A DNA stretch of 64,000 bases. Origin: Flavobacteriales bacterium (GTDB taxonomy: Bacteria > Bacteroidota > Bacteroidia > Flavobacteriales_C > GCA-002722245). How positions within the stretch are numbered: position 1 is the stretch's first letter; every line of letters begins with the position of its first letter. The position numbers and the translations under genes are program-made. Below are positions 49,315-55,802 of this stretch, piece by piece. A model generated the notes under the pieces. That model was not told the origin of the DNA. It saw only the letters and a list, made by a program, of their open reading frames with translations, and did not search any database. Where the stretch lies: contig JAHEZL010000003.1 in NCBI GenBank assembly GCA_023251095.1, positions 62,001 to 126,000 of the forward strand, written 5' to 3'.

Positions 49315-51855
49315 TTACTCCACAATCATTTTTACTATTTTCTGAGTGTTCTCAGAAGTAATTGATGTGAAATAAATACCTGAACGTAAGTTTGAAGTAT
49401 TCAATGTTAATTTAGTTGTTCCAACACTCACTTCACCTTGGTAAACAGAGGCTACCAATTGACCAGTGATGTCGTAAACATTTACTGAGATATTGTGAGA
49501 TTCAGTCATGTTCAATTCGAAAGTAGCTTGCTCATTTACCGGGTTAGGGTAGATAGAAAGGCTTCCTCCTTTAATTTCAGCAATACCAACATTGATAGTA
49601 TCCATCAAAGTCACCATGTCGGAACATGTTCCTTTAGATGCTGTTAATGTGATGGTATATTTTCCGTTTGTTGCATAAGCATGAACAGGAGTTGTAGCGG
49701 CAGAACTTTCGAAATCTCCGAACTCCCATTTGTAACTTGTAGCACCTGTAGAAGAGTTAGAGAAAGTAAGTACATTTCCTGATTTTGAAACAATCGCTGC
49801 AGCAGCAACCGGAACAGTTCCTACGGTGATAACAACATCGGCAGATTGACCAACACCGGCGCAAGCATCTGTATTAGTAGTAGTAACATTATAAGTTCCG
49901 CTTGTTTTAACAGTGATGCTTTTTGTTGTACCTGCACTGTTTGCCCATTGGTAAGAATCGGCAGTAGATGAAGTTAATACCACTGAATCTCCTTCGCAGA
50001 AGGAAAGAGCACCTGAAACACTTACTGTTGGTAGCGGAGCGCTGCTCACACTAACTACAGTTGCAGCAGATGTAGCAACACAAGTGTTGTTGTCGGTAAC
50101 CGTTACTGTATAAGATCCTGTTGATGAAACAGTGATACTATCTGCAGTTGCAGTTGTTGACCAAACATTTCCTGTTGCAGAACTTGATTTCAAAACCACT
50201 GAGCTACCAGTACACAATGAAGTAGAACCTTTAGCAGTAATAGTAACAACCGGCAAAGCATTGATGGTTACAGTAACAGCTGTTCTTGCACTTTCGCCAC
50301 CATAAACTTCAGATTGACTAACATAGTAAGTAGTTACACCAACTGTAGCTGTAGAAGGCGTTGGAGCAGTCATGCTTCCTGTTCCGCCTGTTGCAGCAGT
50401 GTACCACCACAATGTGTTTCCTGAAGCAGCAGTTGCTGTTAAAGCACTTGCAGTTGCACCTTTGCAATAAGCAACATTAGAAGCAGTCGGAGCTTTCAAT
50501 ACGAAAGGATCCATCATTATATCTGTAAAATCAGCACCTGTTAAAGCGATAGAACCTACAGCCGGACGGTAGTCAGGAGCAGTATAATTGTATGGAGTGG
50601 TTAAGATGTTAGCAGAAGAAACCAATGAATCGTTTTTGCTTGTTGCAGCAAACCAAGCATCCATTCCGGAGAAAGGAAAACCTGAAGTTGTTTCCAATAC
50701 GTGTCCTGTTGAATTACCGGCAACGATGTTATTTTTAAATTTCAAACTACCCGCTTGAGCCAAAGCAACACAAAGAGAACCATCAATATGAACTCCGTTT
50801 TTGTGGTCCATGAAAATAGAATTGTAAATTTTCAAAGCAGAATTTCTTCTGATACGTGCACCTCTTCTGTATCCGGCAGCAATGGTAGAAGAAGTATTTC
50901 CTCTGTATGGCCCGATCAAAGTAATGTTTGAAAATATAGCAGATGTTTGAGGTGTAGCGGTAGATCCGCTTGCATCATTGTCCGACTCAAATCCTTCTGA
51001 TGTAGAAACCGCAGGAGCATCAGCAATGTTCGGGTCACGAACCGACAATGCAAATTGTACTTTTCCGCCGAAACCGAAATCGGTATCAAAATCATCATCT
51101 AAGTTTCTGTATGACACTAAATATTTACAAGTCACTTTTCCACCGAACCATTCGAAAGCATCATCATTTGAAAAGGATACTTGTATGTGATCGATCGTTG
51201 TTCCGCTACCTACTGAACCAAAAGTTAAACCGTTGATTTCTTTATTCGGTTGGTAAACATAACCTCCCCATTCAATACGAACATAACTCAAAACACCTGA
51301 GTTATCAGCATCATCAGGACTCAATCCTCCTCCAAACTGAGTTTCAGGAGTTGCAGCCAATCCTTCGATGTTTGCAATTCCGCCTGTTTGGTTGTTGCTT
51401 GCTTTTCCCATCAAAATAATTCCGCCCCAGTCGCCTTGTGCACGAGATCCTGCAGCCTGATTAGAAGTAAAAACAATAGGTTGAGCAGCAGTTCCTTTTG
51501 CCATTATTTTTGCTCCCTGACAAATAAATAAACCTGCTCCGGTAGAAGCTTTATTTCCTTGAATTACAGTACCCGGTTGAATAGTTAAGGTAGCGCCGTT
51601 TTTAACATAAATTTGTCCCGACAAAATATATGTTTTGTTGGCAGTCCATGTTGTATTAGTAGTGATGCTGGTTTTAACAGTATCTGTTGCATTAGCATAC
51701 ACAGTATTTTGCGGATCCCAGTTGGTCCAGTTGTCGGTCCACATAGCAACATTTGGTTCGAAAGCACCACGATAAGTGGTAGGCACAAAAAAGGATTGTG
51801 CCATAGCAAGGTTGCACAGGAATGCAAACAGTGCTGTTTGGTAAATTTTTTTCAT
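49315..51855 (-). CDS. Secreted beta-helix-like protein with T9SS sorting domain
   Basis: 846 residues from ATG 51855, where a signal peptide begins (MKKIYQTALFAFLCNLAMAQ); an upstream in-frame start adds a polar leader and is rejected. Residues about 60-430 look like a right-handed beta-helix or parallel-beta domain (VKNGATLTIQPGTVIQG, GDWGGIILMGKAS, then acidic YRNLDDDFDTDFGFGG, possibly metal binding). Ig-like repeats with paired Cys (SLCTGSSVVLKSS; FCEGDSVVLTSS) follow, then a PKD domain (SYKWEFGDFESSAATTPVHA). The type IX sorting domain closes it (LSIYPNPVNEQATFELN to KIVKMIVE). Homologs are sometimes named multidrug transporter, which the domains do not support. Located 139 bases downstream of the TonB receptor; likely its surface partner. 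Confidence 0.87.
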   Translation of the reverse strand: MKKIYQTALFAFLCNLAMAQSFFVPTTYRGAFEPNVAMWTDNWTNWDPQNTVYANATDTVKTSITTNTTWTANKTYILSGQIYVKNGATLTIQPGTVIQGNKASTGAGLFICQGAKIMAKGTAAQPIVFTSNQAAGSRAQGDWGGIILMGKASNNQTGGIANIEGLAATPETQFGGGLSPDDADNSGVLSYVRIEWGGYVYQPNKEINGLTFGSVGSGTTIDHIQVSFSNDDAFEWFGGKVTCKYLVSYRNLDDDFDTDFGFGGKVQFALSVRDPNIADAPAVSTSEGFESDNDASGSTATPQTSAIFSNITLIGPYRGNTSSTIAAGYRRGARIRRNSALKIYNSIFMDHKNGVHIDGSLCVALAQAGSLKFKNNIVAGNSTGHVLETTSGFPFSGMDAWFAATSKNDSLVSSANILTTPYNYTAPDYRPAVGSIALTGADFTDIMMDPFVLKAPTASNVAYCKGATASALTATAASGNTLWWYTAATGGTGSMTAPTPSTATVGVTTYYVSQSEVYGGESARTAVTVTINALPVVTITAKGSTSLCTGSSVVLKSSSATGNVWSTTATADSITVSSTGSYTVTVTDNNTCVATSAATVVSVSSAPLPTVSVSGALSFCEGDSVVLTSSTADSYQWANSAGTTKSITVKTSGTYNVTTTNTDACAGVGQSADVVITVGTVPVAAAAIVSKSGNVLTFSNSSTGATSYKWEFGDFESSAATTPVHAYATNGKYTITLTASKGTCSDMVTLMDTINVGIAEIKGGSLSIYPNPVNEQATFELNMTESHNISVNVYDITGQLVASVYQGEVSVGTTKLTLNTSNLRSGIYFTSITSENTQKIVKMIVE

Positions 51856-51994
51856 CGAGTTTTTAGTTTTTAAGTTCATAAGCCAAAGATCAACTCTCAA
51901 TCTTAGCGCATCATTAAGTGGGGATTACCTTTATCTTATGAATTCCTTAAAAAAAGTAACACGAAGGTTACGAAGAACTAACAATTAGTTAATG

Positions 51995-54922
51995 TTAGAA
52001 TTTGAGTGTAGCCGATAAAGAATATGTGCTTCCGAATTTGGTTGACCAAATCAGGTCATCTTCATTAGCGTTGTAATCGTTTTTATTTTTCGCATCACCG
52101 GTAAGAATGGTATTGAAAAAATTTCCGTTTGTGGTAACGATATCTCTGTTTTGATAAAAGATTTGTCTTTGCGCCAAAAGATTAGAGATATTGAATTTTA
52201 AATCCAGTCTTTTTTTCCACAGCGATTTAGTCACCTGAAGATCAATAAAATTTCTGCCGTTTTCCCAGATGTTAGGTTCGTTAACATTTCCAACAATATA
52301 AATACGCGGAGCTACTGTATTGTAGCTGAATGAAACCGATAATCCTCTAGCGGTATCCACGTATTGAATTCCTGAATTCAATACAAATGGCGACTGTCCT
52401 TGTAAAGGGCGGGTTGCATCCTGACTGCCCAAAATACTTGTCACATCTACCACTGAACGGATGATGGCCAAATTGGTAAATACAGTAAGGCTGTTTAATA
52501 ATTTTATAGAATCCGTTTTAAATATAGTAGAAAGCAATAAGCGCAATTCTATTTCAACACCGTAATTAGAAGCTTTTGGAACATTTCTAAAAGAGATTTC
52601 GTTCGTCACGTCGGCTCTTGAAATTTGTTCAATAGGATCAATAAATTCTTTGTAGAATCCTGAAACAGAAAACACTTGTCCTTTTCCGGGATACATTTCA
52701 TAGCGCACATCTGCATTGTGAATTTTTGCTCTTCTTAAAGAGTCATTTCCTGTGATCACAAATTGCGTATTGAAATCATAAAAAGCGAAAGGAGCAAGCT
52801 CGCGATATTCCGGACGATTGAGCGTTTGAGAATAACTTACTCTGATGTTTTGTTTTTTGTTGAGCGCATAAATGTAGTTGGCCGACGGTAAAACATCAAC
52901 GGTAGAAACATTGATGCTTAAGTTACTTTTGTCGGATTTTAAAGCATGCAATTGTTGTGTGAAACTCTCTACTCTTGCTCCCCAAACCAGTCGTGATTTT
53001 TTATATTTATTATCCAGCATTGCATACGCTGCAAATAAAGAGGAGTTGGCAGTATAGGCATCTGTGTATTTTGTGCCGTCGGTTAATTTAAATCCGCCAA
53101 CACCAGGATTTATTAATCCCATATTTTCGTTGCTGAAAATATGATCATTGTTTAAATACAATAGCGAATCATTAAAAGAAACGTTGCCCCCTACTTTTGC
53201 ATATTTGGTATAACCCAATTGTCGGGCAAAAAATGAACGGTCGCGACTTTGAAAAAACACACCTGCTTTTATTTCATTAGTGGAGTTTTCACCAATCTTA
53301 AAGGATCGTGATGCATCGGCTTTAAAGCTGTAACTGTTTTCTTTGTTTTCCGAAAAAAACATTCCGCCGCCATAATCCGGACCAACATTCGAACTTCCTA
53401 TACTTGCCGTATATACTGTGTCTGATGGATTAGGGTCATTGGGATCATTGATGTTTTTCATGCGGGTGTATATATTCCTTCTTAAGTTAGGAATGCTTCT
53501 TTCGATATTACTTAAGGAACCCACCCAGTTGATGCGTGTTTTGTATTTCGACAAATAATGTTCTCCGATCAATTGTCCCGAATAAATTTTATTGCTTGTG
53601 AACCAATTGGCATTCGATTGTAATAAAGTAGGATTGGCTTCTAAAGGATTGATTTCACCATTTCTGGCGATGACCCTATTGTCGGAATTTATACTCAATA
53701 TGTTTTTAAAACTTAACATATTATTTCTGTTCATTTTCACGGAGAAGTTCACCAGCGCTCCGGCCAGAACCTGTTCGGAATATATTTTATCCAGATAATC
53801 AAAATCCAGCTGAGAAGCAGTAGTATTATTTGCTCCGTTGCCCGTCCAACCTTTACGGATGGTTTCATTGTAATTGCTGGTTTTGTTATAAGTGAGGGCC
53901 AAGATCACACCGAAAGGTTTTCCTGCAACGGTGTCGCTGAATCCTAAAGAATACTGAAGATTGTAGTTGGGAGAAAATGTTTTGTTGCTTAAGCTCCAGT
54001 CAACATTTGTTTTTTTTGCCAGTGCAGCTTGTTCATTAATAGTGATAGGAAAGTGGTCTTTGTCGGGAATAACACTTGGCATCGCTCTGCTGCCGTCATC
54101 CACACCTAACCAATCCCATTTCCCACCTTTATAAGTCACCTGATTATTTCCTGTTGTAATAGAGTTGTATCCTCCGCTTATAGAGAAGGATTGGAAATTC
54201 TGATCGGGAATATTTTTAGTAGTGATTTGAATAATTCCTCCTGCAAACTCAGCGGGCAAGTCGGGGGTGGCAGTTTTGGTAATTACTAAATTGTCCAGCA
54301 TGTTGGAAGGGAAAATATCAAAAGCAAAAGCTTTTCTGTCGGATTCGGAACTAGGCAAAGGTGCGCCGTTAATATAAGCTGCATTGTATCTGTCGTTCAA
54401 ACCTCTGATGATCACAAATTTATTGTCCTGAATACTTGCGCCACTTACTTTTTTAATCACATCACCGGTATTTCTGGTAGGAGCTAATTTTATTTGCTCC
54501 CCTGAGATTCCGTCGGATACGGTTGCACTTTTTGATTGCGCAACAATTAAAGCATCGCTGGATTCCTGTTTTGGTTTTCTTTTTATTTTAATGGCTTCGG
54601 TTTTAATCAAAGCGCGTTGAAGCGTAATATCAAGGTGAGTGGGTTCGCTTGCTTTTACAATTACTTCTTCAATTGTTTTTGAAGCATACAAAGCAGCATT
54701 ACAAATTAATTTATAAGTTCCGGGTTGAATGTTGTGGATATTAAAAAATCCATCGAGGTCGGTTACTCCAACAATATTTGAGCTGTCGATACGCACACTT
54801 ACTTCCGGAAGCGGAGCTCCTGTTTCGGCATCTATCACCTTTCCTTTTATGCTGGAACTTTGAGAGAATAGCGCTGTGGTCAGCATAATCACTGTAAGCG
54901 TAAAGAGTAATTTCAATTTCAT
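51995..54922 (-). CDS. TonB-dependent outer-membrane receptor
   Basis: A 975-residue receptor. After a signal peptide (LKLLFTLTVIMLTTALFSQ) comes a carboxypeptidase-regulatory-like domain (residues about 22-110: IKGKVIDAETGAPLPEVSVR). A plug domain follows (GISGEQIKLAPTRNTGDVIK, RGLNDRYNAAYINGAPLPSS), then a 22-strand-type barrel ending SLSATLKF. It would import a ligand using TonB energy. It is not accompanied by a SusD lipoprotein, so it is not a canonical Sus pair. The downstream T9SS protein and the divergent response regulator gene suggest a regulated nutrient-uptake operon. Ligand unknown; phosphate or organophosphate is a guess based only on the PhoB-like regulator. Confidence 0.9.
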   Translation of the reverse strand: MKLKLLFTLTVIMLTTALFSQSSSIKGKVIDAETGAPLPEVSVRIDSSNIVGVTDLDGFFNIHNIQPGTYKLICNAALYASKTIEEVIVKASEPTHLDITLQRALIKTEAIKIKRKPKQESSDALIVAQSKSATVSDGISGEQIKLAPTRNTGDVIKKVSGASIQDNKFVIIRGLNDRYNAAYINGAPLPSSESDRKAFAFDIFPSNMLDNLVITKTATPDLPAEFAGGIIQITTKNIPDQNFQSFSISGGYNSITTGNNQVTYKGGKWDWLGVDDGSRAMPSVIPDKDHFPITINEQAALAKKTNVDWSLSNKTFSPNYNLQYSLGFSDTVAGKPFGVILALTYNKTSNYNETIRKGWTGNGANNTTASQLDFDYLDKIYSEQVLAGALVNFSVKMNRNNMLSFKNILSINSDNRVIARNGEINPLEANPTLLQSNANWFTSNKIYSGQLIGEHYLSKYKTRINWVGSLSNIERSIPNLRRNIYTRMKNINDPNDPNPSDTVYTASIGSSNVGPDYGGGMFFSENKENSYSFKADASRSFKIGENSTNEIKAGVFFQSRDRSFFARQLGYTKYAKVGGNVSFNDSLLYLNNDHIFSNENMGLINPGVGGFKLTDGTKYTDAYTANSSLFAAYAMLDNKYKKSRLVWGARVESFTQQLHALKSDKSNLSINVSTVDVLPSANYIYALNKKQNIRVSYSQTLNRPEYRELAPFAFYDFNTQFVITGNDSLRRAKIHNADVRYEMYPGKGQVFSVSGFYKEFIDPIEQISRADVTNEISFRNVPKASNYGVEIELRLLLSTIFKTDSIKLLNSLTVFTNLAIIRSVVDVTSILGSQDATRPLQGQSPFVLNSGIQYVDTARGLSVSFSYNTVAPRIYIVGNVNEPNIWENGRNFIDLQVTKSLWKKRLDLKFNISNLLAQRQIFYQNRDIVTTNGNFFNTILTGDAKNKNDYNANEDDLIWSTKFGSTYSLSATLKF

Positions 54923-54943: not shown

Positions 54944-54999
54944 ACAAAGTAATGTGTGGAAGGTCAATTCATTATTACTTCAATGTTATGGTAGTGTTA
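54944..54999 (-). promoter_or_regulatory. Candidate promoter/operator of the TonB-receptor operon
   Basis: On the minus strand, three TAAY boxes (TAAC, TAAC, TAAT) begin at exact 11-base steps, and a degenerate TGAC is the fourth (plus-strand 54996-54999, 54985-54988, 54974-54977, 54963-54966). Ten bases beyond the last box lies TTACTTTG (54945-54952), one mismatch from TAnnTTTG. It ends 22 bases before the receptor ATG at 54922. The layout copies that upstream of the response regulator gene. Confidence 0.55.
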
Positions 55000-55037
55000 A
55001 CAAAGCGATCTCTTGTAGCGCAAGGCAGAACAGCAGT

Positions 55038-55093
55038 TTAATGTTTCCTTAATATTAAGCTAACTCAGGGCTAATTGTACTGGCGTAGATTTG
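55038..55093 (+). promoter_or_regulatory. Candidate promoter/operator of the response-regulator gene
   Basis: Four boxes TTAAT, TTAAT, CTAAC, CTAAT start at 55038, 55049, 55060 and 55071, exactly 11 bases apart. Ten bases after the last comes TAGATTTG (55086-55093), a perfect -7 element. No TTG is found at -33, which fits an activator-dependent promoter in which the boxes take the place of the -33 element. ATG is at 55110. Confidence 0.6.
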
Positions 55094-55109: not shown

Positions 55110-55802
55110 ATGAGTAAAATCAAGATACTGATAGTCGACGATGATCCGGATATTTTAGAGTTCGTGGGTTATAATCTTTCCAAAGAAGGTTTTACTGTAC
55201 ATAAGTATTCTGATGCGCAAAGCGCGATGGAAGCCTGCAAAATTATTATTCCCGATTTACTCATATTGGATATTATGTTGCCGGATATGGACGGTATTGA
55301 ACTCTGTTATAAATTAAGAAATGATATAGGTTTAAAAGATTCGCTCATTGTTTTTTTAACTGCGCGTGGTGAAGATTATACGCTGATAGCCGGATTGAAT
55401 GCAGGCGCTGATGATTTCATTAAAAAACCAATTCAACCGAGGGTATTGATTTCAAAAGTTCATTCTTTATTAAAGAGAATGAAAAAAGAGCCGCTGTCTT
55501 CTCCATCGGAAATCACTTCAACAATGAAAGGTATTACGATAGACAAATCGAAATACGTGGTGTATAAAAATGAAGAGAAATTTTATTTTCCGAAGAAAGA
55601 ATTTGAATTGTTGTTGTTACTCACTTCAGTTCCCGAACGAGTTTTCACGCGCGAAGAAATATACAGTAAGGTTTGGGGCCAGCATTTAATTGTTGGTGAC
55701 AGAACGATAGATGTGCACATCAGAAAATTGCGTGAAAAACTGGGCGATGATTATATTCAAACCGTGAAAGGGGTGGGATATAGATTCAGTCCGAATGACT
55801 AA
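55110..55802 (+). CDS. OmpR/PhoB family response regulator
   Basis: A 230-residue two-component regulator. The receiver domain has the acidic pocket (Asp10-Asp12), phospho-acceptor Asp54 in LLILDIMLPDMDG, the conserved Thr in FLTARGEDY and Lys in FIKKPIQP. The C-terminal winged helix (FYFPKKEFELLLLL; RVFTREEIYSKVWG; RTIDVHIRKLREKLGDDYIQ; VGYRFSPND) has the PhoB/OmpR recognition helix. Such proteins bind direct repeats with 11-base spacing, and boxes of that spacing precede this gene and the divergent receptor gene. No histidine kinase gene is adjacent: ddl converges with a 4-base overlap. The kinase must lie elsewhere. Confidence 0.93.
   Translation: MSKIKILIVDDDPDILEFVGYNLSKEGFTVHKYSDAQSAMEACKIIIPDLLILDIMLPDMDGIELCYKLRNDIGLKDSLIVFLTARGEDYTLIAGLNAGADDFIKKPIQPRVLISKVHSLLKRMKKEPLSSPSEITSTMKGITIDKSKYVVYKNEEKFYFPKKEFELLLLLTSVPERVFTREEIYSKVWGQHLIVGDRTIDVHIRKLREKLGDDYIQTVKGVGYRFSPND

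Follow-up and report, generated by a model that had tools for sequence, protein, structure and literature searches.

The genes of a PhoB-like response regulator and of a TonB-dependent receptor diverge from each other in this Flavobacteriales genome, and mirror-image sets of short boxes stand in front of them with an 11-base step, which raises the question of which protein reads these boxes, which genes it controls and which signal it follows. The window analysed here is the whole stretch of 64,000 nucleotides around this region. The regulator gene (55110-55802, + strand) encodes an orphan PhoB-like regulator of the OmpR family (230 aa; Pfam PF00072 and PF00486). On the - strand lie the receptor gene (51995-54922; 975 aa; PF13715/PF13620, PF07715, PF14905) and, downstream of it, the gene of a large T9SS-sorted surface protein (49315-51855; Por_Secre_tail, PKD, Ig_7). 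The start of the latter is placed at ATG 51855 (MKKIYQTALFAF...), a start codon that is followed by a good signal peptide and agrees with the array described below; the ORF list starts it at TTG 51900, within its promoter. We consider it very probable that three arrays of the window are Pho boxes, through which a PhoB-family regulator would control its own gene as well as those of the receptor and the surface protein. Their sequence, phasing, conservation and distribution and the identity of the recognition helices are observed directly; binding, activation and the phosphate signal are inferred from the ranks of the arrays with a held-out profile, the step-11 phasing, the distance to the -7 element, the enrichment before receptor and surface-protein genes, the identical recognition helices and the literature on relatives.

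The boxes described in the first-pass annotation, with their 11-base step and the 10-base gap to a -7 element, can be read directly on both strands. The regulator array is composed of TTAAT (55038-55042), TTAAT (55049-55053), CTAAC (55060-55064) and CTAAT (55071-55075) on the + strand, and the -7 element TAGATTTG (55086-55093) follows 10 bases past box 4. On the - strand, the receptor array (54963-55000) is composed of TTAAC (55000-54996), ATAAC (54989-54985), GTAAT (54978-54974) and TTGAC (54967-54963), the last being the degenerate fourth box already pointed out, and TTACTTTG (54952-54945) lies again 10 bases past box 4. As had also been claimed, TTG at the -33 distance is absent from the regulator and receptor promoters. 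The same geometry is found on the - strand before the surface-protein gene, with ATAAG (51939-51935), GTAAT (51928-51924), TTAAT (51917-51913) and CTAAG (51906-51902) spanning 51902-51939 and the -7 element GATCTTTG at 51891-51884, 10 bases past box 4. Both TTACTTTG and GATCTTTG have one mismatch to TAnnTTTG, and the pattern scan counted 3 mismatches in the surface-protein array. A phased array with its -7 element is therefore located between the receptor and surface-protein genes (51884-51939, - strand), where the supposed receptor operon probably has an internal promoter. The earlier idea of one regulator acting on itself and on the receptor operon holds for the shared arrays, but it overlooked this third array; a second PhoB may moreover share the sites. 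An inverted-repeat reading of the boxes was rejected: CTTAATATTAAG is palindromic in the regulator promoter, but the regulator paralogue on C16 has CTTAATGCTAAG there, with the direct repeat kept.

With a G+C content of 38.6% and frequent TTAA words, such repeats could in principle be chance products of AT-rich promoter DNA. In the whole 64-kb window, TAAY triples at step 11 occur only at the regulator and receptor arrays, and none was found at steps 9, 10, 12 or 13. A profile of 62 columns was built from 26 PhoB-like regulator promoters, all of them outside the window's genome. The three best of 127,878 window positions were, in this order, the arrays of the regulator (40.0), the receptor (23.6) and the surface protein (22.0), the fourth-best position reaching 8.6 and the maximum over 60 dinucleotide-shuffled windows 17.1. 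The genome (3.59 Mb) was scanned with patterns and with sequence-only covariance models. One of these models, R2, made from 33 arrays with none from the window's genome, placed the regulator array first (E 2.2e-6), the receptor array second (E 6.1e-6), the array of the C16 paralogue third (E 1.4e-5) and the surface-protein array fourth (E 0.0018). The following matches, at C14:68686 (0.0026), before a porin O/P gene on C34 (0.009) and before an ExbB/TolQ gene on C35 (0.014), are candidates only; the recall of R2 in this genome is modest and, past the top six or seven, matches blend with chance. The uniqueness of step 11, the held-out profile and genome ranks, the shuffled windows and the preservation of the arrays in orthologues and in the paralogue rule out chance repeats, a reading to which we give next to no weight.

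Loss of the phasing in orthologous regions, which would have argued against a common operator, was looked for, and the phasing is kept. Between the window and its closest relative (G003), both arrays and their -7 elements are conserved and the spacer between the arrays has diverged. Eight orthologue and paralogue promoters from two genera retain the regulator array in the same register, and in G001-G004 arrays precede the regulator, the receptor and the surface protein, even with altered gene order. Outside the family, pairs of TTAAY at step 11 were found in 23 of 61 upstream regions of PhoB-like regulators (0.6 expected from shuffles) and pairs at step 22 in 7 (0.5 expected); on the opposite strand of the same regions, 15 have TTAAY pairs, in agreement with divergent promoters. 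Exact TAnnTTTG elements near box pairs lie at a gap of 10, 21, 22 or 32 in 16 of 19 cases, and at 10 modulo 11 in 15 of 21 independent loci. From the sequences compared, the 11-base phasing is class-wide. The phylogenetic footprints, this phasing, the phase-locked -7 distance and the PhoB-like domain all favour the initial view of OmpR/PhoB-type tandem boxes in the -35 place, common to the regulator and the receptor, as a predicted operator.

In 108 profile-selected arrays, TAA is present in box 1 of 78, box 2 of 104, box 3 of 94 and box 4 of 38; such counts lean towards the profile that selected the set, a bias from which the pair-based tests are free. Conservation is highest in boxes 2 and 3 and lowest in the promoter-nearest box 4, which is often degenerate, and TTG at the -33 distance occurs in 13 of the 108. 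The repeat unit is TTAAYnTTnnn, in place of the NTRAY-N6 consensus proposed at first. The Bacteroidota -7 element spans -12 to -5 (PMC9723704), and with the -7 so placed box 4 falls at about -27 to -23 and box 3 at about -38 to -34. Boxes 3 and 4 thereby occupy the same positions as the E. coli Pho box, and two more units lie further upstream. As in Pho boxes, at least two direct repeats with an 11-base period stand in a fixed helical phase to the promoter core and replace the -35/-33.

The E. coli Pho box consists of 11-base head-to-tail repeats, the last conserved block ending 10 bases before the -10 hexamer (PMC1906773, PMC4415409). The window arrays have the same period and the same 10-base gap, and the DNA-binding domain belongs to the same family, whereas the repeat is CTGTCAT in E. 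coli and TTAAYnTTnnn here, the arrays of the window type have usually three or four units, and the promoter element is the Bacteroidota -7 TAnnTTTG instead of a -10. Arrays of this type further differ from E. coli in that their proximal unit is often weak, a feature unexplained in the set of 108 arrays. The Pho boxes of the cyanobacterial SphR consist of at least three 8-base boxes in tandem, separated by linkers of 3 bases and with the consensus CTTAACCT (PMC1906773). The box is nearly identical to ours and the period identical, but the arrays described here belong to another phylum and promoter, are phase-locked to TAnnTTTG and stand mainly before TonB receptors and T9SS surface proteins. 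PhoB of B. fragilis binds the pst promoter (PMC3547664). Pho-type sites are so far poorly defined in Bacteroidota, and the predicted sites combine E. coli geometry, a cyanobacteria-like consensus and the Bacteroidota -7; no Bacteroidota Pho-box definition with geometry was found in the open-access literature, which is not proof of priority.

To describe which genes the arrays precede, 80 loci from named records, found via the surface protein, were used, an array being counted from a score of at least 15. Of 69 receptor genes, 41 were preceded by such an array (Fisher 4e-31), as were 33 of 80 surface-protein genes (2e-20), both compared with 15 of 491 other genes. The surface-protein family adjoins TonB receptors in 71 of the 80 loci. 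Equally phased boxes at unrelated promoters, the other observation that could have weakened the proposal, are thus rare, and among the 15 other genes several are phosphorus genes (PlcP-type metallophosphoesterases and a DUF47/PhoU-like gene). In relatives, arrays are found before porin O/P, pstS, PlcP-like and MauG-like genes and before TonB receptors. This place before pst and other phosphorus genes, expected of Pho boxes, is seen in part in the window's own genome: the genome search gave a candidate array before porin O/P, and pstS has two boxes only, with a poor -7. The model scan of Chitinophaga arvensicola and Fluviicola chungangensis added a PhoB-like regulator, a MauG-like peroxidase and more genes of TonB receptors or Oar-like proteins. 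Since C. arvensicola has these arrays and one PhoB-like gene, the arrays do not need the orphan. The PlcP-type metallophosphoesterase genes (lipid remodelling) preceded by arrays in Chitinophaga are located at L212 3442-4272, L226 3391-4221 and L227 3380-4210.

The regulator of the window has a receiver, an OmpR-type winged helix and the PhoB recognition helix, with the phospho-acceptor Asp and the DNA-binding domain intact, and the nearest solved relative (PDB) of this domain is E. coli PhoB. The best NCBIfam model is PhoB TIGR02154, with 200 bits for a cut-off of 296; with NF053854 the score is 192 bits for a cut-off of 270. A second copy on C34, 58% identical, adjoins a PhoR-like kinase, PstS, PstCAB, PhoU and a Na/Pi cotransporter; this canonical copy is likewise below both cut-offs (215 and 208 bits), so that they cannot tell PhoB from non-PhoB here. 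NCBIfam names were therefore set aside as proof of PhoB, and the window regulator is called PhoB-like because it misses the equivalog cut-off. The link to phoR and pst, which sit with the C34 copy, is absent for the window regulator, and no kinase gene adjoins it at the locus. A third copy on C16, 81% identical to that of the window, has the same array and adjoins another TonB receptor and surface protein. In the tree, the copies of the window and of C16 group with those of seven related genomes in one clade (100/99) apart from the phoR-pst-linked copies, which makes the window regulator, by its tree position, an old orphan paralogue of PhoB; in two genera, members of this clade have kept receptor and surface-protein genes as neighbours. 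The recognition helix GDRTIDVHIRKLREKLG is letter-identical in the orphan and the canonical PhoB, which may on this ground share sites. The three other OmpR-type regulators encoded in the genome were rejected as binders, since their recognition helices differ and their genes lack upstream arrays.

The identity of the helices leaves two PhoB copies to be considered. The arrays could be Pho boxes for which the canonical PhoB matters, the orphan being a target or modulator and not an activator. The lack of an adjoining kinase gene speaks for this, as do the identical helices and the single-PhoB genomes (Chitinophaga, Rufibacter), in which receptor and surface-protein genes are preceded by arrays of the same kind. 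We nevertheless hold it to be rather unlikely, because the orphan clade is old, monophyletic and faithful to its two neighbours, the orphan promoter has the strongest array of the genome, and the orphan retains an intact phospho-acceptor Asp and DNA-binding domain. Alternatively, and with less than an even chance, the orphan could be a dedicated self-activating amplifier: the general PhoB would start the orphan, which would then drive outer-membrane phosphorus scavenging through the four-unit arrays in its own promoter. Two genera of this family have kept the clade of this putative amplifier, whose members invariably adjoin a TonB receptor and a surface protein. Such a system would act as a sharp and history-dependent switch, distinct from the response of pst.

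The same boxes could also serve an orphan placed outside the Pho system and following another signal (another nutrient or envelope stress), as the missing kinase neighbour and a receptor whose cargo is not known would allow. In Riemerella anatipestifer, PhoP is induced by phosphate starvation, the most conserved nucleotides of its DAP-seq sites are TTTAACA, and it binds its own promoter and that of a TonB receptor (accessible part of PMC9603813). The same part of that report describes a very wide target set, which is in favour of another signal, and likens the motif to that of ArcA; unlike the arrays here, the sites are given there with neither an 11-base array geometry nor a -7 spacing. Against another signal, the arrays of relatives precede porin O/P, pstS, PlcP-like and MauG-like genes, and in Flavobacterium johnsoniae a homologous cluster of PhoBR, a TonB receptor and a lipoprotein is strongly induced by Pi depletion and not by N or Fe depletion, PlcP and a MauG-like protein being Pi-induced too (PMC8115612). 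We consequently judge a non-phosphate signal improbable. The F. johnsoniae cluster (Fjoh_0545-0546) resembles the window in its grouping of phoB with the genes of a TonB receptor and of a large surface protein, and the window receptor has the same Pfam make-up as the Pi-inducible Fjoh_0545. That the window surface protein is homologous to the Flavobacterium lipoprotein FII is concluded from gene context and not from comparing the sequences. The two loci differ in that phoR adjoins phoB in F. johnsoniae, whereas the window PhoB is an orphan and the second PhoB is elsewhere with phoR-pst; the binding site of that cluster is not given in PMC8115612.

Under the Pho-box reading that we prefer, the PhoB-family regulator would be phosphorylated under phosphate scarcity and would bind head to tail on the 11-base units TTAAYnTTnnn, on one face of the DNA. 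The last bound unit, 10 bases before the -7 TAnnTTTG, would replace the missing -33 contact and recruit RNA polymerase. The orphan paralogue would in this way activate itself together with the divergent TonB receptor and the surface protein, and the locus would constitute an outer-membrane phosphorus-scavenging unit with positive feedback. Against this reading, the canonical phoB has no array on its own strand. Sharing of these sites by the two PhoB copies, which we infer, would be a clean example of a master regulator that was duplicated and still uses the DNA sites of its parent. The combination of TTAAYnTTnnn, the 11-base step and 10 + 11n bases to TAnnTTTG provides a usable rule for predicting phosphate regulons in Bacteroidota, the dominant phylum of many soils, guts and waters, and it suggests a role in phosphorus scavenging for uncharacterised TonB receptors and T9SS proteins.

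Several observations accompany these results. The surface protein is possibly a beta-helix; its AlphaFold2 model has low confidence (mean pLDDT 52.8) and Foldseek matched only small Ig-like and T9SS C-terminal domains with it, so this fold stays a guess. The C16 system (L003 7245-8015, 10218-13289 and 15810-17627) has a perfect regulator array and a related surface protein with a weaker array (15.4). At C34:38248-38302 (- strand), a four-box array (25.5) precedes the gene of a 221-aa exported protein with no Pfam or NCBIfam match. The match at C14:68686 (- strand) is a four-box array (27.0) before the gene of a sensor-like membrane protein; the gene of a SixA-type histidine phosphatase diverges from it. 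The array-like match on C35 (3086-3140, + strand) stands before an ExbB/TolQ/MotA proton-channel gene, whose product is possibly the energy supply for the TonB receptors.
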